Shown: positions 3,643 to 24,306 of the stretch, in pieces
Layout: each line of letters starts with the position of its first letter
Position numbering within the stretch: position 1 is the first letter of the stretch
NCBI GenBank assembly: GCA_947453625.1
Contig: CANGHK010000002.1
Location: 62,001 to 126,000, forward strand
Length of the DNA: 64,000 nt
DNA from: Burkholderiales bacterium
GTDB taxonomy: Bacteria; Pseudomonadota; Gammaproteobacteria; Burkholderiales; Burkholderiaceae_C
Direction: 5' to 3'
Notes under the pieces: model-generated
Databases searched by the model: none
Seen by the model: only the letters and a program-made list of their open reading frames with translations
What the model was told of the DNA's origin: nothing
Program-made: the position numbers and the translations under genes

Positions 3643-4026
3643 GGGCGGTCCGGGTTCAAGTGCCTGCCCGCGGGCGGGCGGGATCAGTCTATCGATTCAA
3701 GCTGTCGCGACTGCGCGCAGGCCATGACCGAGCGCTTGGCCGGCCAAGCCGGTCACTCTAGCGGCTGATGGCACAAGCCGTGCGTGGCAGGACCCACGGG
3801 CGCGCAGCGCCTGGCGCCTGGGCCTGCCGGCCCCCAGGCAAGAGCGGTTTCGGGGGACGCATCCGGGTGCATGCCCGCACCAAGCCGGTGAATGGGCTTG
3901 GTTCGCGCACCAGGCCAGCCTGCGGCCGTTGTATGCGCGCAACGCCTCGCCAGCGATTCAACATGCTGTCATCACATCCATCAACAATTCAGCTGATTCG
4001 ACATTTTTAACCGGAAAAGACCCGCC
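3643..4026. other. Divergent intergenic region between amaB and the TonB-dependent receptor
   Basis: A 384-base stretch holding the start regions of two divergent genes. Visible structure: a 16-base perfect palindrome GCTTGGCCGGCCAAGC at 3734-3749, and an inverted repeat GCCTGGG/CCCAGGC at 3816-3822 and 3833-3839 without a T tract. The last 70 bases before the receptor are AT-richer and probably hold its promoter, but I cannot assign -35 and -10 boxes with confidence. Short open frames here (for example 3768-4010) have no recognisable protein features and are not called. Confidence 0.4.
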
Positions 4027-6592: not shown

Positions 6593-6763
6593 ACCCGTTC
6601 ACTCGATCGAGTCGGCGCCATCCGCGACCCTGTGCCTGCGCCGACCCAGACGACAGACAAAAGCAAGAGGCGATGCTGTTGACGGCGCGCATGATGGCGG
6701 AGACGAAGCTGTCCGGTGGCGTCCGATTGCGCGCCACCCCCCGAACCTGGACAAGGAGTGAGC

Positions 6764-10049: not shown

Positions 10050-11018
10050 ATGAACCACGCGCTGCTGGCCACGCTAGGCCTGATTCTGATCACCCCCCTG
10101 GCCCAGGCCCAGCCGGCGGTGATCTACGACATGGGCGGCAAGTTCGACAAATCCTTCAACGAGGCGGCCTATGTGGGCGCCGAGCGCTGGAAGAAGGAGA
10201 CCGGCAAGCCCTACCTCGATTTCGAGATCGCCAACGAGGCCCAGCGCGAGCAGGCGATGCGGCGCATGGCCGACAAGGGCGCCAACCCCATCATCGGTGT
10301 CGGCTTCGGCCAGGGCTCGACGATGGAAAAAGTGGCCAAGGATTTCCCCAAGCTGCAGTTCGCGATCATCGACTCGGTGGTCAAGCTTCCCAACGTCGAG
10401 TCGGTGGTGTTCAAGGAGCAGGAAGGCAGCTTCCTGGTCGGCATGATGGCCGCGCTGGCCAGCAAGTCGGGCAAGGTGGGCTTCATCGGCGGCATGGACA
10501 TCCCGCTGATCCGCAAGTTCCAGTGCGGCTACGAGCAGGGCGCCAAGTACGCCAATCCCAAGGTCGAGGTCAGCGCCAACATGACCGGCACCACGCCGTC
10601 GGCCTGGAACGACCCCAGCCGCGGCAGCGAGCTGGCCAAGGCCCAGTTCGCCAAGGGTGTCGACGTGGTCTTCGCCGCCGCTGGCGGCACCGGCGTGGGC
10701 GTCTACCAGGCGACCAAGGACGCCGGCCGGCTGGCGATCGGCGTCGACAGCAACCAGAACCACCTGCACCCGGGGACGATGCTGACCAGCATGGTCAAGC
10801 GGGTGGACGTGGCGGTGTACAAGCTGGCCAAGCAGACCCACCCGGGGCTGACCGTGCTGGGGCTGAAGGAGGGCGGCGTCGACTACGCGCTCGACCAGCA
10901 CAACGCGGGGCTGGTCAGCGCCGAGATGAAGAAGCGTGTCGACGCGGCCAAGGCCGACATCATTGCCGGCCGGATCAAGGTAGCCGACTACATGGCCGAC
11001 AACGCGTGTAAGTATTGA
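10050..11018 (+). CDS. BMP-family ABC transporter substrate-binding protein (nucleoside type)
   Basis: A 322-residue periplasmic protein of the PnrA/BMP family, whose characterised members bind purine or other nucleosides. A Sec signal peptide (about residues 1-20, ending LAQA) precedes the mature start QPAVIYDMGG. No lipobox cysteine is seen, so it is probably soluble. The segments GGKFDKSFNEAAYVGAERW, GVGFGQGSTM and FAAAGGTGVGVY are typical of the family. It opens an operon with a double ATPase and two permeases, whose reading frames overlap one after another. Location between adenosine deaminase and other salvage genes supports nucleosides as the ligand, although a sugar acid for the adjacent apionate-like operon cannot be excluded. 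Confidence 0.9.
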   Translation: MNHALLATLGLILITPLAQAQPAVIYDMGGKFDKSFNEAAYVGAERWKKETGKPYLDFEIANEAQREQAMRRMADKGANPIIGVGFGQGSTMEKVAKDFPKLQFAIIDSVVKLPNVESVVFKEQEGSFLVGMMAALASKSGKVGFIGGMDIPLIRKFQCGYEQGAKYANPKVEVSANMTGTTPSAWNDPSRGSELAKAQFAKGVDVVFAAAGGTGVGVYQATKDAGRLAIGVDSNQNHLHPGTMLTSMVKRVDVAVYKLAKQTHPGLTVLGLKEGGVDYALDQHNAGLVSAEMKKRVDAAKADIIAGRIKVADYMADNACKY

Positions 11019-12628
11019 TGTTGCCCGCGCCCGCCGGGGCGGTTTCACCAAACCCAACCCCAACCCCGGCCCCGCTGCGGCCCCCCGCCGTGCTGATGCG
11101 CGGCATCAGCAAACGCTTCGGCGTCGTGCAGGCCAACCGCGAGGTCACGCTGTCGGTGGCCGCGGGCACGGCGCATGGCATCGTCGGCGAGAACGGCGCC
11201 GGCAAGAGCACGCTGATGGCCATCCTCTACGGCTTCTACCAAGCCGACAGCGGCGCGATCGTGATCGCCGGCCGGCCGGCGCTGATCAACGGTTCGCGCG
11301 ACGCGATCGCGCTGGGCATAGGCATGGTGCACCAGCACTTCATGCTGGTCGAGCCGCTGTCGGCGCTGGACAACATCATGCTGGGCGCCGAGCCCGACTG
11401 GCGGCTGGACCGGGCCCGCACCCAGGTGCGCGCCGAGCTGCAGGCCTTGATGGACGACACCGGCCTGCAGGTGAGGCTGGAGCTGCCGGTCGAGGACTTG
11501 CCGGTGGGCGAGCGCCAGCGGCTGGAGATCCTGAAGGCGCTGTACCGCGGCGCGCGCATCCTGATTCTCGACGAGCCCACCGCGGTGCTGACGCCGCAGG
11601 AGACCGACGCGCTGTTTGTCACGCTGCGCCGCTTGCGCAACGCCGGCACCACGCTGCTGCTGATCAGCCACAAGCTGGCCGAAATCATGGCACTGTGCGA
11701 CGCGGTGACCGTGATGCGCGGCGGCGCGGTGGTGTTCGACGGGGCGATCGGCGACTGCAGTCTGGACCAACTGGCCGAGGCCATGGTCGGGCGCCGCGTC
11801 AAGCTGGGTCGCGACGCCGCCGGCGCCGCCGTGCAGCCCAGCCCCGGCGCGGTGCTGTTGGCCGCGCAAGACCTGCAGTGGCGTGATGCGGCGGGCGTGC
11901 AGCGCCTGGCCGGCGTGTCGCTGGCGCTGCGCGCCGGCGAGATCGTCGGCATCGCCGGGGTCTCGGGCAACGGCCAGAGCGAGCTGCTGGAGATGCTCGC
12001 CGGCATGGCCGCGCCGCAGGCTGGCACGCTGACGCTGGGCGACCAGACCTTCGGCCCCGGCCACTGGCTGGACCCGGCCCGCGCGCGCCGGCTCGGCCTG
12101 GCCCATGTGCCCGAGGACCGGCACCGCTGCGCCATGGTGCTGCCCTTCGCCGCTTGGGAAACCGCCGTGCTGGGCTTCGAGCGATCGCCGCGCTTTGCCA
12201 GCGCCTGGGGCTGGATGAAGCGCTCGGCGATGCGCCGCGCCACCGCCGGGATGATGGCCGCCTACGACGTGCGGCCGCGCAACCCCGACCTGCGGGCGTC
12301 CAAGTTCTCGGGCGGCAACCAGCAGAAGCTGGTGCTGGCGCGCGAGGCGCTGGCGCCCGAAGTGGCACCCCGCGTGCTGCTGGTCGGCCAGCCGACACGC
12401 GGTGTCGACATAGGCGCGATCGAGTTCATCCACGGCCGGCTGCGCGCGATGCGCGAGGCCGGCGGCGCGGTGCTGCTGGTGTCGAGCGAGCTCGACGAGA
12501 TCCTGGCGCTGGCCGACCGGGTGCTGGTGATGGACCGCGGCCGCATCGCCGGTGAACTGGCGATCGCCGATTGCAGCGAGGCCGCGCTGGGCCGGCTGAT
12601 GGCCGGCGTCGGCGCGGGGCACGCATGA
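11018..12628 (+). CDS. ABC transporter ATP-binding protein with two nucleotide-binding domains (nucleoside importer)
   Basis: A 536-residue ATPase with two fused ABC domains, as in sugar and BMP-type nucleoside importers. The first domain has Walker A GENGAGKST and Walker B ILILDEPTAVLTP; its signature is VGERQRLEI. The second has the degenerate P-loop GVSGNGQSE usual in these fusions and the signature FSGGNQQKLVLARE. The ATG at 11018 overlaps the TGA of the binding-protein gene by one base, and an in-frame TTG lies one codon before it. The stop overlaps the next permease start as ATGA, so expression is translationally coupled. An N-terminal proline-rich extension of about 25 residues precedes the conserved domain; an internal ATG at 11096 is the alternative start. 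Confidence 0.9.
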   Translation: MLPAPAGAVSPNPTPTPAPLRPPAVLMRGISKRFGVVQANREVTLSVAAGTAHGIVGENGAGKSTLMAILYGFYQADSGAIVIAGRPALINGSRDAIALGIGMVHQHFMLVEPLSALDNIMLGAEPDWRLDRARTQVRAELQALMDDTGLQVRLELPVEDLPVGERQRLEILKALYRGARILILDEPTAVLTPQETDALFVTLRRLRNAGTTLLLISHKLAEIMALCDAVTVMRGGAVVFDGAIGDCSLDQLAEAMVGRRVKLGRDAAGAAVQPSPGAVLLAAQDLQWRDAAGVQRLAGVSLALRAGEIVGIAGVSGNGQSELLEMLAGMAAPQAGTLTLGDQTFGPGHWLDPARARRLGLAHVPEDRHRCAMVLPFAAWETAVLGFERSPRFASAWGWMKRSAMRRATAGMMAAYDVRPRNPDLRASKFSGGNQQKLVLAREALAPEVAPRVLLVGQPTRGVDIGAIEFIHGRLRAMREAGGAVLLVSSELDEILALADRVLVMDRGRIAGELAIADCSEAALGRLMAGVGAGHA

Positions 12629-13749
12629 GCCGTCCCGTGGAACTGCCGCACTGGATCGATGTCGGCCTGCTGCCGCTGGTCAACCTGGCGTTGGCGCTGG
12701 CGGTCTGCGGCGTCGTCGTCGCGGTGGTCGGGTTGAACCCGCTGCAGGTGCTGACGCTGCTGGTCAAGGGCGCTTTCGGCAGCGCGTCAGGCATCAGCTA
12801 CACGCTGTACTACGCCACCACCTTCGTCTTCACCGGGCTGGCGGTGGCGGTGGCGCTGCATGGCGGGCTGTTCAACATCGGCGGCGAAGGCCAGGCGCTG
12901 ATCGGCGGCCTGGGCTGCTCGCTGGTCGCGCTGGCGCTGGGCGATCAGCTGCCGGCAGCAGTGCTGCTGCCGCTGATGGTGGCCGCGGCCATGGCCGCCG
13001 GCGCGCTGTGGGCGCTGGTGCCCGCCGCGCTGCAGGCCTGGCGCGGCAGCCATGTCGTGATCACCACCATCATGTTCAACTTCATCGCCTCCGCGCTGCT
13101 GGCCTGGCTGCTGGTGGGCGTGCTGAAGGCCCCGGGCAGCATGTCGGTCGAGACCGGGCCGTTCCCCGAGGCCGCGCACATGCCCGGCATGCACCAGGCG
13201 CTGGCCTGGCTGGGCATCGCCTGGCCGCGCACGCCGCTGAACCTGAGCCTGCTGCTGGCGCTGGCTGCGGCCGTCGCGGTATACCTCTTTCTGTGGCGCT
13301 CGCGCGCCGGCTACGCCTTGCGCGCGGTCGGGTTTTCGCCCGACGCGGCGCATTACGCCGGCATCCGGCCGCGCGGCCAGGTGATGGCCGGCATGCTGAT
13401 CTCGGGCGCGCTGGCCGGCCTGGTGGGCATCAACGAGCTGGCCGGCGTGCAGCACCGGCTGCTGCTGGACTATGTGGTGGGCGCGGGCTTCACCGGCATC
13501 GCTGTCTCGCTGATCGGCCGCAACCACCCGCTGGGCATCGTGCTGGCGTCGCTGCTGTTCGGCGCGCTCTACCAGGGCGGGGCCGAACTGGCCTTCGAGA
13601 TCCCCGGCTTCTCGCGCGACATGGTCACCACGCTGCAAGGCCTGATCGTGCTGTTCTCGGGCGCGATGGCGCAGGTCGCGGCGGCGCCGCTGGCGCGGGC
13701 CTGGGCTTGGTTGCGCCCGAACGCGGCGGCGGGAGCGGGCCATGGATGA
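12625..13749 (+). CDS. ABC transporter permease 1, nucleoside (BMP) type
   Basis: A 374-residue inner-membrane permease of the BPD_transp_2 family with about eight to ten hydrophobic segments. The segments FNIGGEGQALIGGLG and ITTIMFNFIA are typical of the NupP/YufP-like group paired with BMP binding proteins. The ATG overlaps the ATPase stop codon as ATGA. It forms the heterodimeric channel with the permease encoded next, whose start overlaps its last eight bases. Confidence 0.9.
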   Translation: MSRPVELPHWIDVGLLPLVNLALALAVCGVVVAVVGLNPLQVLTLLVKGAFGSASGISYTLYYATTFVFTGLAVAVALHGGLFNIGGEGQALIGGLGCSLVALALGDQLPAAVLLPLMVAAAMAAGALWALVPAALQAWRGSHVVITTIMFNFIASALLAWLLVGVLKAPGSMSVETGPFPEAAHMPGMHQALAWLGIAWPRTPLNLSLLLALAAAVAVYLFLWRSRAGYALRAVGFSPDAAHYAGIRPRGQVMAGMLISGALAGLVGINELAGVQHRLLLDYVVGAGFTGIAVSLIGRNHPLGIVLASLLFGALYQGGAELAFEIPGFSRDMVTTLQGLIVLFSGAMAQVAAAPLARAWAWLRPNAAAGAGHG

Positions 13750-14719
13750 GGCGCTGATCGGCGGCCTGCTGGCGTCGACGCTGCGGGTGTCGACGCCGCT
13801 GATCCTGTGCGCGCTGGCCGGCTTGCTGAGCGAGCGCGCCGGGGTGATCGACCTCGGGCTGGAGGGCAAGATGCTGCTGTCGGCCTTTGCCGCGGGCGCG
13901 GCCGGGGCCTTGACCGGGTCGTTGCCGCTGGCGCTGGCGGCGGCGATCGCGGTCGGCGTGGCGCTGTCCATGGTCCATGGTTTCGCCTGTGTCAGCCACA
14001 CCGGCGACCAGGTGGTGCTGGGCATGGCGCTGACGATGATCGCCGCCGGCCTGTCTATCGTGCTGGGCATCGCCTGGTTCAAGCAGGGCGGGCAGACGCC
14101 GCCCTTGCCTGATGCGGTGCGGCTCTCGCCCTGGTTCACGGGGCTGGCCGCGGCGATCGGGCCGCTGCCGTTGCTGGGCGCGGTCTTGGGCGCGGGTCTG
14201 CTCGGCCACCACGCGCTGGTCTACGGCGCGCTGGCGCTGGTGCCCGCGATCTGGGCGCTGCTCTACCGCACCCGGCTGGGCTTGCGGCTGCGCGCCACCG
14301 GCGAGAACCCGGCGATGGTCGACGCCGCCGGCCTGTCGGTCAAGGGCTTGCGCTACGGCGCGCTGGTGGGCAATGGCGTGCTGTGCGCGCTGGCCGGCAG
14401 CAGCCTGGTGCTGGCGCAGAACGCCAACTTCGTGCCCAACATGACGGCCGGGCGCGGCTACATGGCGCTGGCGGCGATGATCTTCGGCAAATGGCATCCG
14501 CTGGGCGCGCTCTGGGCCTGCCTGCTGTTCGGTTTTCTCGACGCGGTGGCCATCCGCTTGCAGGGCGTCGTGCTGCCGGCCGCGCTGGGCGGCGGCGCGG
14601 TGCCGGTGCAGGCGATCCAGGCCTTGCCCTACCTGATGACGGTGGTGCTGCTGGCCGGCTTCATCGGCCGCTCGCGTGCCCCGGCGGCGCTGGGCGTGCC
14701 CTACGTCAGGGAGCGTTGA
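13742..14719 (+). CDS. ABC transporter permease 2, nucleoside (BMP) type
   Basis: A 325-residue BPD_transp_2-family permease, the shorter partner of the preceding protein (NupQ/YufQ-like). It begins with an amphipathic helix followed by LLSERAGVIDLGLEGKMLLSAF-like sequence, in which the DLGLEG segment is diagnostic of these second permeases, and has about eight to nine membrane segments. The ATG lies eight bases before the end of permease 1. It ends 20 bases before the stop of the convergent GntR gene; no clear terminator is visible in that small gap. Confidence 0.9.
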   Translation: MDEALIGGLLASTLRVSTPLILCALAGLLSERAGVIDLGLEGKMLLSAFAAGAAGALTGSLPLALAAAIAVGVALSMVHGFACVSHTGDQVVLGMALTMIAAGLSIVLGIAWFKQGGQTPPLPDAVRLSPWFTGLAAAIGPLPLLGAVLGAGLLGHHALVYGALALVPAIWALLYRTRLGLRLRATGENPAMVDAAGLSVKGLRYGALVGNGVLCALAGSSLVLAQNANFVPNMTAGRGYMALAAMIFGKWHPLGALWACLLFGFLDAVAIRLQGVVLPAALGGGAVPVQAIQALPYLMTVVLLAGFIGRSRAPAALGVPYVRER

Positions 14720-14739
14720 GCGCCGCCGCGCAGCCGCCC

Positions 14740-15468
14740 CTACCCGGGCCGCGCTTGCGGCACGGCATCGAGCTGGCGGTATAGCGCATTGGCGCGCAAC
14801 AGGTGGTCGCGCATCGCCTGCTCGGCACCCGGGCCGTCGTGGCCGGCGATCGCGTCGACGATGCGCTCATGCTCGGCCAATGTCAGGTCCTCAACCCCGG
14901 GGGCACGCACGATCGACTGGTAATACTCGCTGGCCCAACTGAACAAGGCCTCGATCAGCGCCGGGAAGATCGGGTTGCCGCTGATGTGGGCGATCTCGCG
15001 GTGAAAGGCCATGTCGCGCAACAGGAACTGGTCCATGTCGGCGAGCGCCGCGCGGTGCTCGGCCAGGCGGCGGCGCAGCCGCGCCACGTCGTCGAGCTGG
15101 GCGCGTTCGGCGGCCATGCGGGCCATGCCGGCCTCCAGAAAGACGCGTGCCTCTTTCATGTGCTCGAGCATGCCGGGCTGCATGCGCAGCAGGTGTTGGG
15201 CACCGCCGGCGATCTGCGCCACCAGCAGCTGGGCCGTGGGCACCACCAACCGCGCACGCTCACCATGGGTGATCTCGACGATGCCGCCGCGCGCCAGCGC
15301 CTGCAAGGCCTCGCGCACTGCCGGGCGGCCGACGCCGTAGCACACCATCAGGTCGCGCTCGGACGGCAGGTGGTCGCCGGGCGCGAGTTCGCCGCTGCGG
15401 ATGCGTTGCTCCAGCCGCGCCAGCACCTCGTGGTAGAGCTTGCGACGCGGTATTGGCTCGATGCTCAT
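14740..15468 (-). CDS. GntR-family (FadR subgroup) transcriptional regulator
   Basis: A 242-residue regulator. The N-terminal winged helix-turn-helix (about residues 8-75) carries the GntR signature LPSERDLMVCYGVGRPAVRE; the C-terminal helical FCD domain (about 95-230) has the histidines that bind metal and acidic ligands in this subgroup. It is the last gene of the minus-strand operon apnO-RLP-kinase-gntR, 27 bases after the kinase stop. FCD regulators usually sense organic acids or sugar acids, which fits the proposed apionate pathway. The likely target is the divergent control region at 19066-19254. It resembles NanR in its N-terminal region, but no sialic-acid genes are present. Confidence 0.87.
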   Translation of the reverse strand: MSIEPIPRRKLYHEVLARLEQRIRSGELAPGDHLPSERDLMVCYGVGRPAVREALQALARGGIVEITHGERARLVVPTAQLLVAQIAGGAQHLLRMQPGMLEHMKEARVFLEAGMARMAAERAQLDDVARLRRRLAEHRAALADMDQFLLRDMAFHREIAHISGNPIFPALIEALFSWASEYYQSIVRAPGVEDLTLAEHERIVDAIAGHDGPGAEQAMRDHLLRANALYRQLDAVPQARPG

Positions 15469-15495
15469 CAGCTGAGGATACCGCAGCCTCCGCGC

Positions 15496-16944
15496 TCAGG
15501 CCCGGCCTTGGCGCACCCGACCGAAGAACTCCGGCCCGCCCATCTGGCCACCCTTGAGCACCAGCTGCAGGCCGTCGCGTTCCGGCCGCTCGGACCAGGC
15601 GCGGCACAGCGGCGCGCCTGGCGCCAGACCGGCTTCGACGCCCAGCGCGGCGATGTCCAAGGCGCTGGTCACCGCCCCCGAACTGTCGCCGCCGGCCACC
15701 ACGATGCGCCGCAGCGCCGGCACGCGGTCCAGCAGCCTGCGCATCACTTGCGCCAGGGCCAGTCCGACCTGGGTCGCCGCGGCGGCCCGCGGCAAGCCTG
15801 CGCCGGCGGCCAGGGCGTCGAAGCCGGTGACGGCGCGATCGTCGGGCCCCTCGGCCGAAAACACCAGCGGACTGCGGCCGTCGCCCAAGGCCAAGGCCGC
15901 AGCAGTCACCAGGCGGTTGATCTCGATCTCGGCCGCCGCGCCGTCGCTGTCGGCGTGCAGCACCTCGGCGATGTCCAGCCGCTGCACCGCAAAACCCTGG
16001 GCCCGGGCCCAGCCGATCTGATCGGCGGTCACCGGCGAACAACTGCCGCTGACGATGGCGATGGCATCGACCGCATCGGCCTCCGGCAGCCAGGGCTGGG
16101 CCGGCAGCAGCCCTTGCTGGCGCCAGAACGCCGCTAGCGCGTATTGCAGGCCTGACGACGAGGCGCTGAACAGGCCCGCGCCGCGACCCTGCCAGACCAG
16201 GCGCCCGACTTCGGCCAGCGTGGCCTCGTCGATCACGTCGAGCAGCACCACCGGCACGTCGTCGCCCATCAGCGCATCGCGCCGCGCTTCGCCCAGGCCG
16301 GCCTGCAACTGGGCCAGGTCGATCAGCTCGGTGCGGCGCCGTGTCTGGGCGCCCAGGTGGCGGCGCAGGTCGGCCTCGGCCATAGGCGTGACCGGATGAC
16401 GGGCCATCGTCGGATGGCGGTCCAGGCGGTAGCCCACGCCGTCGGCCACCGCGAACAGGTTGCCGAAGGCCTGGTAACGCTTCAGGCGCGGCGCGCCCAC
16501 CACCATCGGCGACCAGCGACCCGGCATCAAGGCGCAGCCCAGCTCGATGGCCCGGCCGATCGAGCCCAGGGTGGGCGAGGAGTCGAAGGTCGAGCAGACC
16601 TTGTACTGCAGGATGGGCGCACCGAAGGCCTTGAGCCGGCGCAGGCCGTCGGCCAGATGCTCGTCCATCCAGGCCGGGCTTTGGCTGCGCGCGGTGCTGG
16701 CCAGGCCAATGCAGCGCTTCCCGGCAAAGCGCGCCAGCCACTGCGGCCCGGGCGGCGACAGGAACAGCACCGTGGGCACACCGGCGGCGCTGAAGGCATC
16801 CATCACGTCGGTGGAGCCGGTGAAGTCGTCGCCGCAATAGGCCAGCAGCGGTCCGGCCGGCCAGGCGTCGTCGGCCGCGCCGGCCGGGCTGGCGCGGCGG
16901 CCGGGATCTGCCGTGGAGATTGCGCCGGGTGTCGTCGCGCTCAC
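15496..16944 (-). CDS. oiaK: DUF1537 four-carbon acid-sugar kinase family protein, probable 3-oxo-isoapionate kinase
   Basis: A 482-residue member of the DUF1537 (OtnK-like) ATP-dependent kinases. The N-terminal motif CGDDFTGSTDVMDAF binds the acid sugar, and the C-terminal nucleotide-binding domain has the segments AIVSGSCSPVTADQI and VVAGGDSSGAV. Known members phosphorylate erythronate, threonate or 3-oxo-isoapionate. The pairing with a RuBisCO-like protein and a PGDH_C-type oxidoisomerase points to the last of these. I chose the GTG at 16944 because it forms a GTGA overlap with the stop of the RuBisCO-like gene; about 30 extra residues then precede the kinase motif. The frame stays open much further upstream, but that part is antisense-type composition inside the neighbouring gene. 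The symbol is inferred from context. Confidence 0.75.
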   Translation of the reverse strand: MSATTPGAISTADPGRRASPAGAADDAWPAGPLLAYCGDDFTGSTDVMDAFSAAGVPTVLFLSPPGPQWLARFAGKRCIGLASTARSQSPAWMDEHLADGLRRLKAFGAPILQYKVCSTFDSSPTLGSIGRAIELGCALMPGRWSPMVVGAPRLKRYQAFGNLFAVADGVGYRLDRHPTMARHPVTPMAEADLRRHLGAQTRRRTELIDLAQLQAGLGEARRDALMGDDVPVVLLDVIDEATLAEVGRLVWQGRGAGLFSASSSGLQYALAAFWRQQGLLPAQPWLPEADAVDAIAIVSGSCSPVTADQIGWARAQGFAVQRLDIAEVLHADSDGAAAEIEINRLVTAAALALGDGRSPLVFSAEGPDDRAVTGFDALAAGAGLPRAAAATQVGLALAQVMRRLLDRVPALRRIVVAGGDSSGAVTSALDIAALGVEAGLAPGAPLCRAWSERPERDGLQLVLKGGQMGGPEFFGRVRQGRA

Positions 16945-18185
16945 CAGAACCCCAGCGCGGCTTGCAGCTCGGGATGGCTGCGCGCATGCTCGGCCAGCGG
17001 CACGCCGGCCACCGCGGCGTCCCAGGCCTGGCGCAGCGCGCTGACCCCGGCCGCGACACCGCCCGGATGGCCGAATATGCCGCCGCCGGCGGCGAAGATC
17101 AGGTCGCAGCCCCCCACCGCGGCATGGGTGGCGGCGGCCACCAGGCCGGTCTGGCCCGAGCTGAACACCGGCATCGCGGCGCATGGCGCGTGGTCCCACA
17201 ACGGCGTCAGAACCGCACGCGCCGCGGCGACCACGCTGGCATCGTCCTCGCTGAACTTGTTGGCCAGGCCGTTGACATGCAGGTGGTCGGCCCCGGCCAG
17301 GCGCCAGAGCTGCTGCCAGGGCGCGTAATCCCAGCCCAGCGCCGGGTGGCGGCTCAAGTAGCCCCAGCCGTTGCGGTGGGCGTGGATGGGCAGCGCGGCG
17401 TGACGGCGAAGTTCACGCAATCCCACCAGGCCGATGCTGTTCAGGCTGGCCATCACGCAGCTGCCGCCCTCGGCCAGCACCAGGTCGTGGCGGCGCTTCA
17501 TCTCGTCGAGTTCGCCGGTCAGGTTGAAGGCGAACATCGCCTGCTTGCCGGTGCGCTGGGCGCCGTCCTTGATCACCCGCATCACCGCGCGCACGCGCTG
17601 GTCGAACGGGCAGTGCGGGCCGTCGGCCTGCAACTCGTCGTCCTTGATGAAGTCGATGCCACCGTCGACCAGCTTGCGCACCTCGGCCGCGGTCTGCGCC
17701 GGGTCCAGGCCGACGCTGGGCTTGATGATGGTGCCTATCAGCGGGCCCTGGTCCACGCCGGCCAGGCGGCGGGTGCCGGCGATGCCGAAGGCCGGGCCGG
17801 GGTAGGCCGCGGCAAACGACGGCGGCAGCTGCAGCCCTGTGATGCGCAGGCCCGAGACCTGGCGCAGCTCGAACAGGTTGCCGGCGACGGTGGCCATCAG
17901 GTTGGGCAGCGACGGGCCGATGTTGGCGATCGGCCATGACAGCTCCAGCACGGAGCGGCTGAACCGCGTGCCCGGCTGGTAATGCCCGGGCAGGCTGGGC
18001 TGGTCTACGGTCTCGAGCAACTCCAGGCGCTCGATGCGGGCGCCCGAGCGCCGCTTCAGCGCCGGCGTCTCGTTGGCCAGGGCCAGGAAGGTGCCGCTGG
18101 ACTGCTCGCCGGCAATCACCTCGGCGGCCTGCCGCGGGTCGTCGCCGGTTTCGAGCCAGTAGCTGGCGTGTATGCGTTCGGTCAT
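16941..18185 (-). CDS. RuBisCO-like protein (form IV), probable 3-oxo-isoapionate-4-phosphate transcarboxylase/hydrolase or decarboxylase
   Basis: A 414-residue RuBisCO-fold protein. It keeps the carbamylated lysine and metal ligands: GGIDFIKDDE gives Lys181, Asp183 and Glu184. It also has the first active-site lysine (Lys155 in GTIIKPSVG), HAHRNG (Arg271), the loop-6 lysine (Lys310 in NGLANKF) and the phosphate loops SSGQTG and GGGIFGHPGG. The second lysine of the KPKLG motif is serine here, as in many form IV proteins, so CO2 fixation is unlikely. Two known activities fit such proteins beside a DUF1537 kinase and an apionate oxidoisomerase: OiaT (giving 3-phosphoglycerate and glycolate) and OiaX (decarboxylating to L-erythrulose 1-phosphate). 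I cannot choose from sequence alone. The start is 49 bases after apnO. Confidence 0.85.
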   Translation of the reverse strand: MTERIHASYWLETGDDPRQAAEVIAGEQSSGTFLALANETPALKRRSGARIERLELLETVDQPSLPGHYQPGTRFSRSVLELSWPIANIGPSLPNLMATVAGNLFELRQVSGLRITGLQLPPSFAAAYPGPAFGIAGTRRLAGVDQGPLIGTIIKPSVGLDPAQTAAEVRKLVDGGIDFIKDDELQADGPHCPFDQRVRAVMRVIKDGAQRTGKQAMFAFNLTGELDEMKRRHDLVLAEGGSCVMASLNSIGLVGLRELRRHAALPIHAHRNGWGYLSRHPALGWDYAPWQQLWRLAGADHLHVNGLANKFSEDDASVVAAARAVLTPLWDHAPCAAMPVFSSGQTGLVAAATHAAVGGCDLIFAAGGGIFGHPGGVAAGVSALRQAWDAAVAGVPLAEHARSHPELQAALGFW

Positions 18186-18234
18186 GGTGCGGAGCAGGTC
18201 GGTGGCGTGGCGCGGCCGCGCCCGTCGCTCCAGT

Positions 18235-19065
18235 TCAGGTGATGCGGCGGATGCTTTCGGTGATCTCGTCGCGGTCGAAGACCTTGAGCCAGTCGTCGCG
18301 CATCAGGCGCGGCTTGCCGAAGGTGATGGCCTTGTTGCAGGCGTCCGAGAACTGCCCCGGGATCTGCTTGAAGATCACTGCCGACAGGATGGTCATGTGG
18401 CCCAGCAGAAAGTCCCGCGCGCAATCGGCCGGCACGCCGCGCGACACCACCTCGTCCATCGCCTCGCGCATCACGTCGAGCAAGGTGGCGCAGACAGTCT
18501 CTGACAGCCCCGGCTCGAGCAGCGCCATCTGCTCCACCGTCACCCGGTACGAGCGCAGGATGGGCTGGTAGATCGTCCTGGCGATCGTCTCGCCGAGCGC
18601 GAAGTCCTCGTCCGTGCCCTGCATCAGCGCGCTGACCACCGACTGCGGCGCGCTGACGCCACCGAAGTAGTCCACTGCACCCGGCTTGTGCACCTCGGGG
18701 CTGAAGATCGTCGGGTGGCAGGGATGGGCGACGAAGTAGACCAGGTCCTTGCGCTCGGGCAGGTGGCCGGCAAACGGCGCCGCGGCGTCCAGCGTCATCA
18801 CCATCGTGCCGGGCTGGAGCAGCGGCGCGATCTCGGCCGCGAGCTTGCCGATCAGCGTGTCGGGCACGGCCAGGATCACCACGTCGACGCCGTCCAGCGC
18901 CACATCCGCTGACACCGCGGTGATGCCCAACTCGTCCTGCAGGCGCTGCCTGCCGACGGCGCCGGGCTCGACATGGCGCACCGTATAGGGCGAACCCATC
19001 AGGTTCTTGGACAGGCGCACGCCCATCTTGCCGCCAGCGCCGAACAGCGCAATCCGGGTACTCAT
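18235..19065 (-). CDS. apnO: PGDH_C-family NAD-dependent protein, probable D-apionate oxidoisomerase
   Basis: A 276-residue protein with an N-terminal Rossmann fold (IALFGAGGKMGVRLSKNL), the segment VILAVPDTLIGKLAAEI, and an all-helical C-terminal half like the phosphogluconate-dehydrogenase C-terminal family (PGDH_C). D-apionate oxidoisomerase, which oxidises D-apionate and moves a hydroxymethyl group to give 3-oxo-isoapionate, belongs to this family and is found with a DUF1537 kinase and a RuBisCO-like protein, as here. It is the first gene of the four-gene minus-strand operon and diverges from cdd across a 189-base AT-richer control region. A GAGAAGG-like ribosome binding site precedes the ATG. 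The assignment rests on family and context; other sugar-acid substrates remain possible. Confidence 0.75.
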   Translation of the reverse strand: MSTRIALFGAGGKMGVRLSKNLMGSPYTVRHVEPGAVGRQRLQDELGITAVSADVALDGVDVVILAVPDTLIGKLAAEIAPLLQPGTMVMTLDAAAPFAGHLPERKDLVYFVAHPCHPTIFSPEVHKPGAVDYFGGVSAPQSVVSALMQGTDEDFALGETIARTIYQPILRSYRVTVEQMALLEPGLSETVCATLLDVMREAMDEVVSRGVPADCARDFLLGHMTILSAVIFKQIPGQFSDACNKAITFGKPRLMRDDWLKVFDRDEITESIRRIT

Positions 19066-19254
19066 CTCAAAGCCTTCTCAAGTAAACTGGTATAATGATT
19101 ATCTGATGTGAGATGCCAGCAGAAAATCCGGGTATTCCCTTGGGTTTGCCCAGATCCGCCCCGCGCAGGACGGGCAATGGCCTCGTCACGGGTCACCCGC
19201 TGCGGTGCCCAGCGCGCTGCGCGCTGATACCCTTGGTTGCCAGCCACCGAGACC
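19066..19254. promoter_or_regulatory. Divergent control region between the apnO operon and the cdd-deoA operon
   Basis: This gap serves two divergent operons. Around 19080-19110 it is strikingly AT-rich for this genome and contains the perfect -10 hexamer TATAAT (19091-19096), read toward cdd, nested in the odd-spaced inverted repeat ATAAT-G-ATTAT (19092-19102), just after a single GGTATA. GntR/FadR-type regulators bind short symmetric AT-rich sites, so this is the best candidate operator for the GntR protein of the operon. No matching -35 TTGACA is seen, consistent with activator dependence or with the site being an operator only. Confidence 0.5.
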
Positions 19255-19686
19255 ATGACCCTTGCCCCGACGGACGCCCTGATGACCCAGCTCGTGGACG
19301 CCGCCCGTGCCGCCCGCGAGCGCGCCTACGCGCCGTACTCGGGCTTTGCGGTGGGTGCCGCCTTGCTCGACGAGCAGGGCCGCATCCACGCCGGCTGCAA
19401 CGTCGAGAACGCCGCCTACCCGCAAAGCCAATGCGCCGAGGCCTCGGCCATCGCCCACCTGGTGCTGGCCGGGGGCAGCCGCATCCTGGCCGCCGTGGTG
19501 GTGGGCGAGGCCGGGGGACCCGACCGGCCACCGGTCACCCCTTGCGGCGGCTGCCGCCAGCGCCTGCGAGAATTCGCTGCCGACGACATGCCCGTCTGGG
19601 CGGCCGACCTGCAGACCGTGCGGGCCCGGTTTACCCTTGGGGTATTGCTGCCCGCCAGCTTCGGACCCGGACACCTCGCACCATGA
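19255..19686 (+). CDS. cdd: Cytidine deaminase
   Basis: A 143-residue zinc enzyme that deaminates cytidine and deoxycytidine. The zinc and catalytic motifs are intact: the CAEASA segment carries a zinc-binding Cys and the catalytic Glu, and PCGGCRQ carries the other two Cys ligands. NVENAAYP and YAPYSGFAVGAAL are typical substrate-site segments. The ATG at 19255 gives the normal family N-terminus; a TTG at 19237 is an in-frame alternative. It opens the operon cdd-punA-5'-nucleotidase-deoC-deoA, and its stop overlaps the next start as ATGA. Confidence 0.92.
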   Translation: MTLAPTDALMTQLVDAARAARERAYAPYSGFAVGAALLDEQGRIHAGCNVENAAYPQSQCAEASAIAHLVLAGGSRILAAVVVGEAGGPDRPPVTPCGGCRQRLREFAADDMPVWAADLQTVRARFTLGVLLPASFGPGHLAP

Positions 19687-20510
19687 GCCCCACCTCGCTT
19701 GAATCCGCCGTAGCCCACAGCGTAGCCCGCGTCCAGGCCGCCGTGCCCGGCGCCGCGCCCCGGCTGGCGATCGTCCTCGGTTCTGGCTGGGACGCCGTCG
19801 CCGACGGCGTGACGGACTCGGTCGACATCGACTACGCCGAGTTGCCGGCCTTCCCGCTGCCTGGCGTGGCCGGCCATGCCGGGTCGCTGCGGCTGGGCTG
19901 CCTCGCCGGCAGGGCGGTCATGCTGCTGCGTGGCCGAAGCCATGCCTACGAGACCGGCGACGCCGCCGGCATGAAGGGCGCGATCCGCACGCTGGCCGCG
20001 CTGGGCTGCACGACGCTGGTTCTGACCAATGCCGCCGGCAGCCTGGTGCCCGACATGGCGCCGGGCTCGATGATGCTGATCAGCGACCACCTCAACATCG
20101 CACAGCGCAGCCCGCTGCACGGCGAGCCGGGTGCGCAGCGTTTCGTCGACATGGGCGCGGCCTACGACGCCACGCTGCGCGACCAGGCCGCTGCCGCCGC
20201 CGAGGACGCCGGCATCGAGTTGCACGAGGGCGTCTACGCCTGGGTGCTGGGCCCGCAGTTCGAGACCCCGGCCGAGATCCGCATGCTGCGCCTGCTGGGC
20301 GCGCAGGCGGTGGGCATGAGCACCGTGCCCGAGACCATCCTGGCGCGCCACGCCGGGCTCAAGGTGCTGGGCTTGTCGATGTTCACCAACCTGGGCGCCG
20401 GCATGAGCGACCAGACCCTGAGCCACGCCCACACCCTGCACACCGCGCAGGCCAGCGCCGGGCTGGCCGTGCGGCTGCTGGCGGCGATCGTGCCGGCGCT
20501 GGTGGTCTGA
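19683..20510 (+). CDS. punA: Purine-nucleoside phosphorylase (trimeric type)
   Basis: A 275-residue enzyme that cleaves inosine, guanosine and their deoxy forms with phosphate. Family motifs seen: LAIVLGSGW at the N-terminus (phosphate loop), GRSHAYETGD (related to GRFHLYEG), TNAAGSL, and MSTVPETILARHAGLKVLGLSMFTN at the base and ribose sites (given here as a single run of short motifs: MSTVPE, then GLSMFTN). The length matches the trimeric class. The ATG overlaps the cdd stop as ATGA; the reading frame extends further upstream but that part has no homology-like features. Confidence 0.9.
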   Translation: MSPTSLESAVAHSVARVQAAVPGAAPRLAIVLGSGWDAVADGVTDSVDIDYAELPAFPLPGVAGHAGSLRLGCLAGRAVMLLRGRSHAYETGDAAGMKGAIRTLAALGCTTLVLTNAAGSLVPDMAPGSMMLISDHLNIAQRSPLHGEPGAQRFVDMGAAYDATLRDQAAAAAEDAGIELHEGVYAWVLGPQFETPAEIRMLRLLGAQAVGMSTVPETILARHAGLKVLGLSMFTNLGAGMSDQTLSHAHTLHTAQASAGLAVRLLAAIVPALVV

Positions 20511-20511
20511 C

Positions 20512-22155
20512 ATGGCGCGCCCAGCGATGACCCCGAAATTGCCCGTGGCGCGGTTTGCCATCTCTGTCCTGTCGGCCGCGCTGCTGCTGGCCGGCTGCGC
20601 CACGCCACCGGCAGGACGCGCGCCGCTGCACCTGACCATCCTGCACACCAACGACCACCACGGCCGCTTCTGGACCAATGCCGACGGCGAGGGCGGGCTG
20701 GCGGCACGCAAGACGCTGATCGACGCCGTCCGCGCCGAGGTGGCGGCGGCCGGCGGCCACACCCTGCTGCTCGACGGCGGCGATGTCAACACCGGCGTGC
20801 CCGAAAGCGATATGCAGGACGCCGAGCCCGACTTCCGCGGCATGGACAGGCTGGGTTACGACGCGATGGCGGTGGGCAACCACGAGTTCGACAAGCCGCC
20901 CGCGGTGCTGGCCAAGCAGCGCGGCTGGATAGGCTTCCCGATGCTGGCAGCCAACATCTACCGGGGCGGCCAGCGCATGTTCGAGCCCTACCGCATCTTC
21001 GAGCGCGGCGGCTACCGCATCGCGGTGATGGGCCTGACCACCGACGACACCACCAAGATGGTGCTGCCCGACAACCTGCGCGGCATCGAGGTGCGCCGTC
21101 CGATCCCCGAGGCCGCGCAGCTGGTGCCGCAGCTGCGCACCCAGGCCGACATGGTGATCGCCGCCACCCACATGGGCCATTACCCGGATGGCCAACGGGG
21201 CGTCAACGCGCCGGGCGACGTCGAGATGGCGCGGGCGGTGGCCGGCCTCGACCTGGTGGTGGGCGGCCACAGCCAGAACCCCGTCTGCATGCTGGCCGAG
21301 AACCTGCGCAACGAGGCCTACCTGCCCGGCATGCCCTGCGCGCCTGACCGCCAGAACGGCAGCTGGATCGTGCAGGCCCATGAATGGGGCAAGTATGTCG
21401 GCCGGGCCGATTTCGTCCTCGACGGCGGCAAGGTCGAGCTGCTGACCTACCGCTTGCTGCCGGTCAACCTGCTGCTGCGCCAGGCCGACGGCACGAAGCG
21501 GCTCGCCGCCGCGGCCATCGACCAAGACCCGGCGACGCGCGGCTTGCTGCAAGCCTTCCAGATCGCCGGCCAGGGCAAGCTGACGGCGACGGTGGGATCG
21601 GCCGACGGCGTGCTCGACGGCGACCGCGTCCGGGTGCGCCGGCAGCCCACCAACCTGGGCAAGCTGATCGCGCGCGCGATGATGGACCGCACCGGCGCCG
21701 ACCTGGCGCTGATCAACGCCGGCGGTGTTCGCGACTCGCTGCCTGCCGGGGCCATCAGCTACCGCGACGTGCTCAAGGTGCAGCCGTTTGGCAACACCGT
21801 CGGGATCGTCGACCTCAGCGGCGCCGAGCTGCTGGCCTACCTGCAGGCGGCCGCCAAGATGACGCCGGCCTCGGGCGGCTTCGCCCAGACGGCCGGCGTT
21901 CGCATGACCATCGTCGGCGGGGTGCTGCAGCAGGCCGAGGTGGGCGGCCAGGCGATAGACCCCGGCAAACGCTACAAGCTGGCGCTCAACAACTTCACCG
22001 CCGTCGGCGGCGACGCCTACCCGCCGCTCAACACCCACCCCGGCTATGTCGACACCGGCTACAACGACGCCGACGTGCTGCGCGCTTACATCGCCGCCCA
22101 CAGCCCGATCAAGGTGGCCGACTTCGACCCCGGCGACGCGGTGGTCCGGCGCTGA
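20512..22155 (+). CDS. Surface/periplasmic 5'-nucleotidase lipoprotein (UshA/NadN-like)
   Basis: A 547-residue two-domain phosphohydrolase. Residues 1-28 form a lipoprotein signal peptide ending in LAGC, with Cys29 as the acylated residue. The N-terminal metallophosphatase domain has the dimetal motifs TNDHHGR, LDGGDVNTG, GNHEFD and the later THMGH and GGHSQNP. The C-terminal nucleotidase domain binds the base (NAGGVRDSLPAGAISY, VQPFGNTV). The protein would release nucleosides from external nucleotides for the BMP importer. It begins two bases after the punA stop; an ATG at 20527 is an alternative. The variant DHHG for the usual DxHG is compatible with metal binding. Confidence 0.88.
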   Translation: MARPAMTPKLPVARFAISVLSAALLLAGCATPPAGRAPLHLTILHTNDHHGRFWTNADGEGGLAARKTLIDAVRAEVAAAGGHTLLLDGGDVNTGVPESDMQDAEPDFRGMDRLGYDAMAVGNHEFDKPPAVLAKQRGWIGFPMLAANIYRGGQRMFEPYRIFERGGYRIAVMGLTTDDTTKMVLPDNLRGIEVRRPIPEAAQLVPQLRTQADMVIAATHMGHYPDGQRGVNAPGDVEMARAVAGLDLVVGGHSQNPVCMLAENLRNEAYLPGMPCAPDRQNGSWIVQAHEWGKYVGRADFVLDGGKVELLTYRLLPVNLLLRQADGTKRLAAAAIDQDPATRGLLQAFQIAGQGKLTATVGSADGVLDGDRVRVRRQPTNLGKLIARAMMDRTGADLALINAGGVRDSLPAGAISYRDVLKVQPFGNTVGIVDLSGAELLAYLQAAAKMTPASGGFAQTAGVRMTIVGGVLQQAEVGGQAIDPGKRYKLALNNFTAVGGDAYPPLNTHPGYVDTGYNDADVLRAYIAAHSPIKVADFDPGDAVVRR

Positions 22156-22168
22156 CCGGCCCGACCCG

Positions 22169-22960
22169 ATGACCAACCCCATGACCGACACCACCGACGA
22201 CGCGCGCACCGCGCTGGCCTGCCTGGACCTGACCAGCCTGAACGACGCCGACGACGCGGCGGCGATCAGCGCGTTGTGCGCCCGCGCGCTGGACGTGGCG
22301 GGGCGCTTGGGCGCGCCGGCCGCGCTCTGCGTCTGGCCGCGCTTCGCAGCCCAGGCCCGCGCCGCGCTGCCGCCGGCGATCCGGGTCGCGGCGGTGGTCA
22401 ACTTCCCGGCCGGTGGCAGCGATGCGGTGGCCGCCGAGGCCGAGACCCGCGCCACCGTGGCGGCCGGCGCCGACGAGATCGACCTGGTGCTGCCCTGGCG
22501 CGCCTTGCGCGACGGCGACGCGGCCGCTGCGCGGGCGGTGGTGGCGGCGGTGCGCGCGGCCTGCGCCGGCCGCACGCTCAAGCTGATCATCGAGTCGGGT
22601 GAACTCGACCGTCCGGCGCTGATCGACCAGGCCTGCCAGATCGGGCTGGACGCGGGCGTCGACTTCCTCAAGACCAGCACCGGCAAGGTGCCGGCCGGCG
22701 CCACGCCCGCCGCCGCCCGCGTGATGCTGCAGGCCATCGCCGCCCATCCGCGCGGCGGCGCCGTCGGTTTCAAGGCCTCGGGCGGCATTCGCGGCGTGGC
22801 CGATGCGGCGCCATACATCGCGCTGGTGCGCGAGATCCTGGGCGCGCAAGCGCTGACGCCGCGGCGCCTGCGCTTCGGCGCCAGCGGCCTGCTGGGCGAC
22901 ATCGAGGCCGTGCTGCAGGGCAGCGGCGCGGGCAATACCTCGGCGGCTGGCGCCTACTGA
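22169..22960 (+). CDS. deoC: Deoxyribose-phosphate aldolase
   Basis: A 263-residue class I aldolase that splits 2-deoxyribose 5-phosphate into acetaldehyde and glyceraldehyde 3-phosphate. The Schiff-base lysine is Lys168 in DFLKTSTGK and the second catalytic lysine is Lys202 in GFKASGG; the DEIDLVLPW segment contributes the catalytic aspartate. The ATG at 22169 or 22181 starts the conserved domain, 13 bases or more after the nucleotidase stop. It acts downstream of DeoA and PunA, after phosphopentomutase, whose gene (deoB) is not in this window. Confidence 0.92.
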   Translation: MTNPMTDTTDDARTALACLDLTSLNDADDAAAISALCARALDVAGRLGAPAALCVWPRFAAQARAALPPAIRVAAVVNFPAGGSDAVAAEAETRATVAAGADEIDLVLPWRALRDGDAAAARAVVAAVRAACAGRTLKLIIESGELDRPALIDQACQIGLDAGVDFLKTSTGKVPAGATPAAARVMLQAIAAHPRGGAVGFKASGGIRGVADAAPYIALVREILGAQALTPRRLRFGASGLLGDIEAVLQGSGAGNTSAAGAY

Positions 22961-22977
22961 GCGCGCGCCGGCTGCCC

Positions 22978-24306
22978 ATGTTGCCGGCCGAGATCATCCG
23001 CGCCAAGCGCGACCGCCAGCGCTTGACCGAGGCGCAGATCCAGGCCTTCGTCCAAGGCCTGGTCGATGAGAGCTGGAGCGAGGGCCAGGTGGCCGCGCTG
23101 GCGATGGCGATCCTGCTCAACGGCATGGACCGCGCCGAATGCGTGGCGCTGACGCGGGCGATGACGCTGTCGGGCCAGGTGCTGGACTGGCGCGATGCCG
23201 GCCTGGCCGGCCCGGTACTGGACAAGCATTCCACCGGCGGCGTCGGCGACAAGGTCAGCCTGGTGCTGGCGCCCATCGTCGCGGCCTGCGGCGGCGTGGT
23301 GCCCATGGTCTCGGGCCGGGGCCTCGGCCACACCGGCGGCACGCTGGACAAGTTGCAGGCGCTGCCCGGCTACACCACCGCTCCGCCGCGCGACCAGTTG
23401 CTGCGCGTGCTTCGCCATGCCGGCTGCGCGCTGATCGGCGCCGACGCCGGGCTGGCACCGGCCGACCGCCGGCTCTACGCGATCCGCGACGTCACCGCGA
23501 CGGTCGAGTCGGTGCCGCTGATCACCGCCAGCATCCTGAGCAAGAAGCTGGCGGCCGGCCTGCAAGGCCTGGTGATGGACGTCAAGCTGGGCAAGGGCGC
23601 GTTCATGAACCGCCTGGCCGACGCCCGCGCGCTCGCCACCAGCCTGGTCGAGGTGGCCGAGGGCGCCGGCCTGCCCTGCCGGGCGCTGATCACCGACATG
23701 GACCAGGTGCTGGGCCGCAGCGCCGGCAATGCGCTCGAGGTGGCCGAGAGCCTGGCTTTCCTCACCGGCGCCGAGCGCGAGCCGCGGCTGCTGGCGCTGA
23801 CCCTGGCCTTGGCGGCGCAGATGCTGGCGCTCGGTGGCCTGGCGCCGACGCTGGCCGCCGGCCAGGCGCTGGCCGAAGCGTCGCTGGTCAGCGGCCGGGC
23901 GGCGGAGTGTTTTGCCCGCATGGTGGCCGGCCTGGGCGGCCCGGCCGACGTGCTGACCGACGCGCGCCTGCCGGCGGCACCGGTGCAGATCGACCTGGCC
24001 GCGCCGCGCGACGGCGTGCTGGTGGCGATGGACACCCGCGCCCTCGGCCTGGTGGTGGTGGGTCTGGGCGGTGGACGCCGGCGCGCCAGCGACGCGGTCG
24101 ACCCCCGCGTGGGCCTGTCGCAGCTGCGCCCGCTGGGCACCTGGCTGCGCGCTGGCGAGCCGATGCTGCGGGTGCATGCGGCCAGCGCCGCCGACGCGCA
24201 GCAGGCGCTTCAGTCGGCACGGGCGGCGCTGACGCTGCGCGACGCCATGCCCGCCGACGCGATGCCCGGCCCGGTCGTCATCGAGACCCTGGGCCCGGCG
24301 CGCTGA
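22978..24306 (+). CDS. deoA: Thymidine phosphorylase
   Basis: A 442-residue pyrimidine-nucleoside phosphorylase. Clear family motifs: KHSTGGVGDKVSL (phosphate site), GRGLGHTGGTLDKL, and SKKLAAGLQGLVMDVKLGKG shortened here to its core DVKLGKGAFM. The length matches bacterial DeoA rather than the longer archaeal AMP phosphorylases. It is the last gene of the salvage operon, 17 bases after deoC. The convergent amidase gene follows after 31 bases; that gap has a 14-base GC palindrome, GGCGCGGCCGCGCC, at 24311-24324 but no T tract. Confidence 0.93.
   Translation: MLPAEIIRAKRDRQRLTEAQIQAFVQGLVDESWSEGQVAALAMAILLNGMDRAECVALTRAMTLSGQVLDWRDAGLAGPVLDKHSTGGVGDKVSLVLAPIVAACGGVVPMVSGRGLGHTGGTLDKLQALPGYTTAPPRDQLLRVLRHAGCALIGADAGLAPADRRLYAIRDVTATVESVPLITASILSKKLAAGLQGLVMDVKLGKGAFMNRLADARALATSLVEVAEGAGLPCRALITDMDQVLGRSAGNALEVAESLAFLTGAEREPRLLALTLALAAQMLALGGLAPTLAAGQALAEASLVSGRAAECFARMVAGLGGPADVLTDARLPAAPVQIDLAAPRDGVLVAMDTRALGLVVVGLGGGRRRASDAVDPRVGLSQLRPLGTWLRAGEPMLRVHAASAADAQQALQSARAALTLRDAMPADAMPGPVVIETLGPAR

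Follow-up and report, generated by a model that had tools for sequence, protein, structure and literature searches.

A predicted D-apionate catabolic operon of the OiaT type is inserted between nupC and cdd in the nucleoside locus of a Burkholderiales bacterium

A pathway for the plant sugar acid D-apionate that runs through the RuBisCO-like protein (RLP) OiaT was reportedly described in Xanthobacter autotrophicus by Carter and colleagues in 2018. Which RLP is the transcarboxylase (OiaT) and which the decarboxylase (OiaX) is taken from what that work reportedly found and from the order within one sentence of a citing passage. A passage of the literature reports the X. autotrophicus RLP as a transcarboxylase/hydrolase (PMC6302742). 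Related gene sets are found in D-apiose clusters of Paraburkholderia (ABC importer, GFO/IDH dehydrogenase, ApnL, MFS, ApnO, RLP, OiaK, GntR) and in TRAP-type cassettes of Comamonadaceae and same-genus relatives (ApnO-DctP...-RLP-OiaK-GntR). The locus studied here comprises four minus-strand genes for an ApnO-type protein, an RLP, an OiaK kinase and a GntR/FCD regulator. It lies in a stretch of 64,000 nucleotides of the draft genome of a Burkholderiales bacterium (contig CANGHK010000002.1, positions 62,001 to 126,000; the window, and for the genome G000). Judged by homology to characterised enzymes, the four genes very probably constitute an operon of the known OiaT type for the catabolism of D-apionate; it stands as an insertion between nupC and cdd.

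With the Xanthobacter pathway the locus shares the ApnO-RLP-OiaK set, and its RLP has the group and the catalytic-type residues of the RLPs of two Xanthobacter congeners. In place of the LysR-like gene (read by eye) of the two Xanthobacter loci it has a GntR/FCD regulator; it also differs in having no MFS permease gene within the cassette, and in its location. The TRAP-type cassette has the same four-gene order, the same operator-like element and the closest RLP (82% to relative G020), but the window cassette has no DctP gene and stands between nupC and cdd. The last four genes of the Paraburkholderia clusters recur in the window, whereas importer, dehydrogenase and lactonase genes are missing from the window cassette. 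To the OiaX-type 3-oxo-isoapionate-4-phosphate decarboxylase the RLP is linked by the RuBisCO superfamily and the presumed substrate; it belongs, however, to a separate clade.

The coordinates and families given for the four genes by a first-pass annotation made from the sequence alone agree with the sequence and with Pfam and NCBIfam (Table 1). The spacing is operon-like: apnO and the RLP gene are 49 bp apart, the GTG start of the kinase gene and the RLP stop codon overlap in a shared GTGA, and 27 bp separate the kinase gene from gntR. All four reading frames are open and constrained, with dN of 0.09–0.29 against dS of 0.33–1.09; dN was below dS in 28/28 comparisons (G012 being counted twice, as L085 and L101), with ratios of at most 0.54.

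The kinase scored 754 bits with the OiaK model NF042436 and passed the equivalog cut-off of 700; the match spans residues 77–531 of P0002, a reading extended 52 residues upstream of the GTG start. Its domains are Pfam SBD_N and NBD_C, formerly DUF1537. The ApnO-type protein has the make-up of its type, an F420_oxidored-like Rossmann domain and Pfam PGDH_C (236 bits) in linkage with OiaK and an RLP, and its nearest PDB entry is 5t57 (452 bits, full length). The names ApnO and OiaT are proposed from clade, fold and context. For the regulator the NCBIfam model NF003011 (NanR subfamily) gave 304 bits, above its cut-off of 260.

The RLP reached 449 bits with the OiaX model NF042437 (cut-off 700) and 234 bits with the form III RuBisCO model (cut-off 497). 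Among 398 genomes of the phylum the OiaX model found a match at E<=1e-80 in 23, six of them over the cut-off; six of the 27 matches listed pass 700 bits, scoring 772–786. An RLP tree was built from 65 rows picked by hand from 128 RLPs; it is rooted at the midpoint only, and its RuBisCO row sits on a very long branch. In this tree the window RLP falls into a starred set of five rows with G020, G088, G012 and Acidovorax, and together with both Xanthobacter RLPs into a starred set of 19 rows (99/92). A separate clade (100/100) unites the six rows that exceed the OiaX cut-off, and 3nwr belongs to a third group. Since the RLP fails the OiaX cut-off and groups with the Xanthobacter RLPs, we class it by its sequence as OiaT (transcarboxylase/hydrolase) type and not as OiaX.

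We also read 22 RuBisCO positions (spinach numbering) by aligning the RLPs with the RuBisCO large subunit of the same genome. At 22/22 of these catalytic-type positions the window RLP equals both Xanthobacter RLPs. It retains K175, K201, D203, E204, H294, H327 and K334, and so all five residues of the RuBisCO superfamily active-site test (K201, D203, E204, K175, K334). Five aligned OiaX rows differ from it at 8/22 positions, including E60 (D in those rows), N123 (G) and H327 (Q); T173, another of the eight, varies within the OiaT-type group too. E60, N123 and H327, all kept in the window, are candidates for residues that distinguish the two RLP types, OiaT and OiaX, in this comparison. The first-pass annotation had let the RLP either cleave or decarboxylate its substrate; model score, tree and catalytic positions favour the cleaving OiaT type, and the decarboxylating OiaX type is given up. 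The RuBisCO large subunit used for the alignment is encoded elsewhere in the genome (G000:C60; L082, 1330-2832, minus strand), scores 764 bits with NF003252 (cut-off 438) and is of form I by eye; a LysR-type gene, likewise read by eye, lies divergently at 2989-3918 of L082. Going by this true RuBisCO gene, G000 may be a facultative autotroph.

Gene neighbourhoods were compared in 80 relatives, the best of at least 533 confirmed stretches, with RLPs 64–79% identical to that of the window. At most 9 kb was fetched on each side (59/80 stretches are of full length), and counts were made by tblastn; a gene caller skipped the window's cdd and, in 8/80 loci, the RLP. The kinase gene was present in 79/80 stretches, apnO in 67/80 and gntR in 65/80; RLP, OiaK and ApnO occur together in 67 relatives and all four genes in 58. 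Two layouts recur in gene calling: ABC-GFO/IDH-ApnL-MFS-ApnO-RLP-OiaK-GntR in several Paraburkholderia, one such locus (L020) having ApnL called by NCBIfam (818 bits, cut-off 750), and ApnO-TRAP-RLP-OiaK-GntR in Comamonadaceae and others. The apionate-type trio that the first-pass annotation had recognised is thereby borne out, with OiaK over a curated cut-off and the trio in 67 of the 80 stretches. That annotation had also named what would speak against it: a phylogeny that puts the kinase and the PGDH_C protein with OtnK/threonate enzymes and the RLP with methionine-salvage or other clades, or a lack of activity on apionate. A check of this, run in part and by model scores, did not refute the assignment. 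An MtnW-type enolase was rejected for the RLP (TIGR03332, 149 bits, cut-off 513.6; NF007095, 181 bits, cut-off 409), and for the kinase 3-oxo-tetronate kinase, the next best NCBIfam model, gave 178 bits (cut-off 350).

The insertion shows in the comparison with relatives. We searched 60 genomes, including the genome itself, and found nupC in 23 and cdd in 24. Twenty relatives have both matches on one contig, and in 17 of these the gap is -4 to 79 bp; the other three gaps are 523 bp (G016), 12,220 bp (G013) and 814 kb (G072). The window genome has a gap of 4,538 bp. Empty nupC-cdd junctions were read directly in G020, G007 and G012; G020, with the closest RLP, carries its RLP and ApnO genes on other contigs. 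The four-gene operon is an insertion that separates nupC from cdd in what was ancestrally one operon for nucleoside uptake and use. An insertion was one of two readings offered by the first-pass annotation, and the empty site in relatives supports it. On the left nupC, as the last importer gene is called, ends 20 bp past the GntR stop codon; on the right 189 bp lie between the apnO start codon and cdd, the start of which is taken as the ATG at 19255.

Other sequences were seen at the same junction in genomes of the same genus. In G013 (L094) it holds genes for an amidohydrolase, a VWA protein, TctC and a ROK kinase, and in G006 (L095/L096) and G001 (L097), both cut by contig ends, the same ROK-type gene stands beside cdd, the likeness being judged by eye. 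The 523-bp gap of G016 (L098, about 3593-4097) contains an open reading frame of 103 amino acids. The nupC-cdd junction looks like a recurrent insertion point for unrelated gene sets.

Table 1. Features of the locus (positions within the window)
Feature	Position	Strand	Basis and remarks
GntR/FCD regulator	14740..15468	-	Pfam GntR + FCD; NanR subfamily; probably represses the operon locally
OiaK, 3-oxo-isoapionate kinase	15496..16944	-	NF042436; GTG start; overlaps RLP stop
RuBisCO-like protein (RLP), predicted OiaT type	16941..18185	-	OiaX model score, tree, catalytic-type positions
ApnO-type, putative D-apionate oxidoisomerase (Rossmann + PGDH_C)	18235..19065	-	Pfam PGDH_C, PDB 5t57, gene context
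Operator-like element TAATCATTATACCAGTTTACTT	19080..19101	-	15-36 bp upstream of apnO; matrix score
GGGCAAACCC element	19142..19151	-	Also upstream of apnO in some relatives; weak
Nucleoside-type ABC importer: BMP binding protein, ATPase, two permeases	10050..14719	+	Pfam Bmp, ABC_tran, BPD_transp_2; left half of host locus
cdd, punA, ushA-type 5'-nucleotidase, deoC, deoA	19255..24306	+	NCBIfam equivalogs; right half of host locus

On the right side of the host locus, cytidine deaminase, purine nucleoside phosphorylase, UshA-type 5'-nucleotidase, deoC and thymidine phosphorylase (5/5) exceed NCBIfam equivalog cut-offs; the UshA-type gene at 20512-22155, within the nucleoside operon, scored 717 bits against a cut-off of 600. 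Placing the RLP operon between the importer and cdd-punA-deoC-deoA was correct in the first-pass annotation, but its list left out this 5'-nucleotidase and a minus-strand adenosine deaminase family gene upstream of the importer, which matches Pfam A_deaminase and stays below the NCBIfam cut-offs. The importer ATPase and second permease are closest to NCBIfam models of a putative B6 transporter (379 bits, cut-off 670, and 146 bits, cut-off 465); the importer's probable role in nucleoside uptake is read from the BMP protein and the neighbouring genes. Further upstream of the adenosine deaminase gene, at 6716-8722, a long open reading frame read by eye joins two ArsA-like ATPase halves in one protein.

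The control region of apnO was analyzed with a matrix for which the seed was picked by eye and the training set consisted of the sequences upstream of apnO in relatives, the window being excluded from training. Sites above 12 bits were present in 26/74 training regions (23 distinct); many of the remaining 48, checked in part only, have another gene before apnO. Across the 64 kb and both strands the matrix gave one strong match, of 23.5 bits at apnO, the second best reaching 5.7 bits. The whole stretches of the relatives contained a site of at least 15 bits in 52/80 cases. In held-out loci with an MFS gene before apnO (n=23), such a site stood at the MFS gene in 17; the six misses are L017, L022 and L029 (9.6–14.1 bits), L021 and both Xanthobacter loci. 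No GntR protein of the window regulator's family was called in either Xanthobacter locus, and L047, where no GntR was called, does have a site. As controls, 15 bits were reached by 20/4219 real stretches from other parts of these loci and by 6/4600 shuffled stretches, and the empty-site stretches L099, L100 and L111 gave best scores of 3.2, 1.6 and 8.8 bits. This co-occurrence suggests that the GntR/FCD protein binds the element. The NanR protein of E. coli is reported to bind a (GGTATA)3 operator (PMC8012715), and the window regulator is of the NanR subfamily; on the other strand the window element is TGGTATAA. Of the 26 relatives that carry an operator-like site, six also have a sequence GGGNAA(A/G)CCC 68–143 bp upstream of apnO and 20 lack it, the exact GGGCAAACCC being common to the window and L101; perhaps, though the indication is weak, it is part of the cassette's control region. 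Scans of 14600-19400 for sigma-70 promoters and terminators found none of either.

Put together as a pathway, ApnO would oxidise and rearrange D-apionate to 3-oxo-isoapionate and OiaK would phosphorylate this compound. The RLP would then split 3-oxo-isoapionate-4-phosphate by transcarboxylation and hydrolysis into the OiaT products, 3-phosphoglycerate and glycolate. The GntR/FCD protein would repress apnO through the element just upstream of its start codon. The draft genome had no match to the lactonase ApnL (NF049900), and a complete ApnL-dependent D-apiose pathway was accordingly not found in G000. The same model matched in 8/8 genomes chosen for an ApnL-like gene at the RLP locus, in seven over the cut-off. 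It was also unmatched in seven related genomes and in those of L035, L044, L046 and the Xanthobacter locus L064; an operon starting at D-apionate is therefore not peculiar to G000. A search for the GFO/IDH dehydrogenase found no match in 8/8 genomes, a result of little weight as it was run without a positive control. As to uptake, a DctP gene lies between ApnO and RLP in G007, G012 and G023; in G002, G010, G017 and G020, where contigs end, it adjoins one of the two. At E<=1e-40 G000 had no DctP match. The MFS protein encoded at the Xanthobacter locus matched its own genome and, at E<=1e-50, had no match in G000, G020, G012 or G007.

Several points weigh against a D-apionate operon of the OiaT type. 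The evidence for these proteins comes from sequence, and the NCBIfam scan gave no match to an ApnO or an OiaT model. X. autotrophicus itself is absent from the rows of the RLP tree, two congeners standing in for it, and within the 19-row set a fork of 14 rows that includes Xanthobacter but leaves out the window is weak (81/50). An operator-like site of at least 15 bits is missing from the stretches of 28/80 relatives. No apionate transporter was found in G000 in a search that covered DctP and one MFS protein and did not extend to ABC-type importers, so that the substrate of the pathway may arise within the cell or be a different acid. G000 is a draft of 127 contigs, 95.6% complete, and absences in it are for this reason not final.

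The trio might instead act on a different branched or linear sugar acid, hamamelonate or a tetronate for example. With no ApnL, no ApnL-dependent apiose route was found in G000, and in G023 the genes beside the cluster look, by eye, like one of tetronate type. We nevertheless regard another substrate as unlikely: the kinase prefers the OiaK model over that of 3-oxo-tetronate kinase by 754 to 178 bits, and in several Paraburkholderia clusters the same families accompany ApnL and the GFO/IDH dehydrogenase. That the RLP is instead an OiaX-type decarboxylase, yielding tetrulose phosphate and CO2, draws on OiaX being its closest named NCBIfam model. The score is far under a cut-off that six of the 27 matches listed do pass, and the separate clade with its different catalytic-type residues also makes a decarboxylase highly improbable.

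The D-apionate operon and the nucleoside genes might also be a single co-regulated unit in which the importer takes up, for instance, the substrate of the operon or a branched acid derived from nucleosides. The two are physically adjacent, the operon has no transporter gene (and G000 neither of the two transporters searched for), and transcription of cdd is now divergent from the apnO control region. Against this, the adenosine deaminase gene, BMP, both importer permeases, cdd, punA, ushA, deoC and deoA were found in 0/80 of the relatives' fetched stretches. An importer-ATPase-like gene of 33–36% identity occurs in 14/80, as expected of sugar ABC ATPases. The empty sites of G020 and G012 are bordered by importer genes of the same kind (77–88% identity). 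The RLP operon and the nucleoside genes point in opposite directions, and the sole strong operator-like site is at apnO, not at the importer. A shared unit is in our opinion very unlikely. Co-regulation of branched-sugar and nucleoside use was the other reading offered by the first-pass annotation, which had suggested comparing neighbourhoods to see whether the cassette travels with nucleoside genes; in the 80 fetched stretches it does not, and co-regulation is not supported. The insertion cuts cdd-punA-ushA-deoC-deoA off from the transcript of the importer. It is very improbable that it has also rewired the nucleoside operon, with cdd-deoA starting from the divergent apnO control region under the apionate repressor and the cassette, its TRAP transporter lost, dependent on the BMP-type importer; if true, the use of branched sugar acids and that of nucleosides would be functionally merged here.

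The link between the D-apionate operon and the nucleoside genes is positional. The apionate pathway itself is already known and its location is unusual; among the titles and passages searched, which are weak evidence, none dealt in its title with an apionate cassette among nucleoside genes. The operator-like element is a candidate operator for the apionate GntR family and is open to test. The locus is a clean natural case of a catabolic cassette, with its own regulator and operator-like element, standing inside an operon that is unbroken in relatives.

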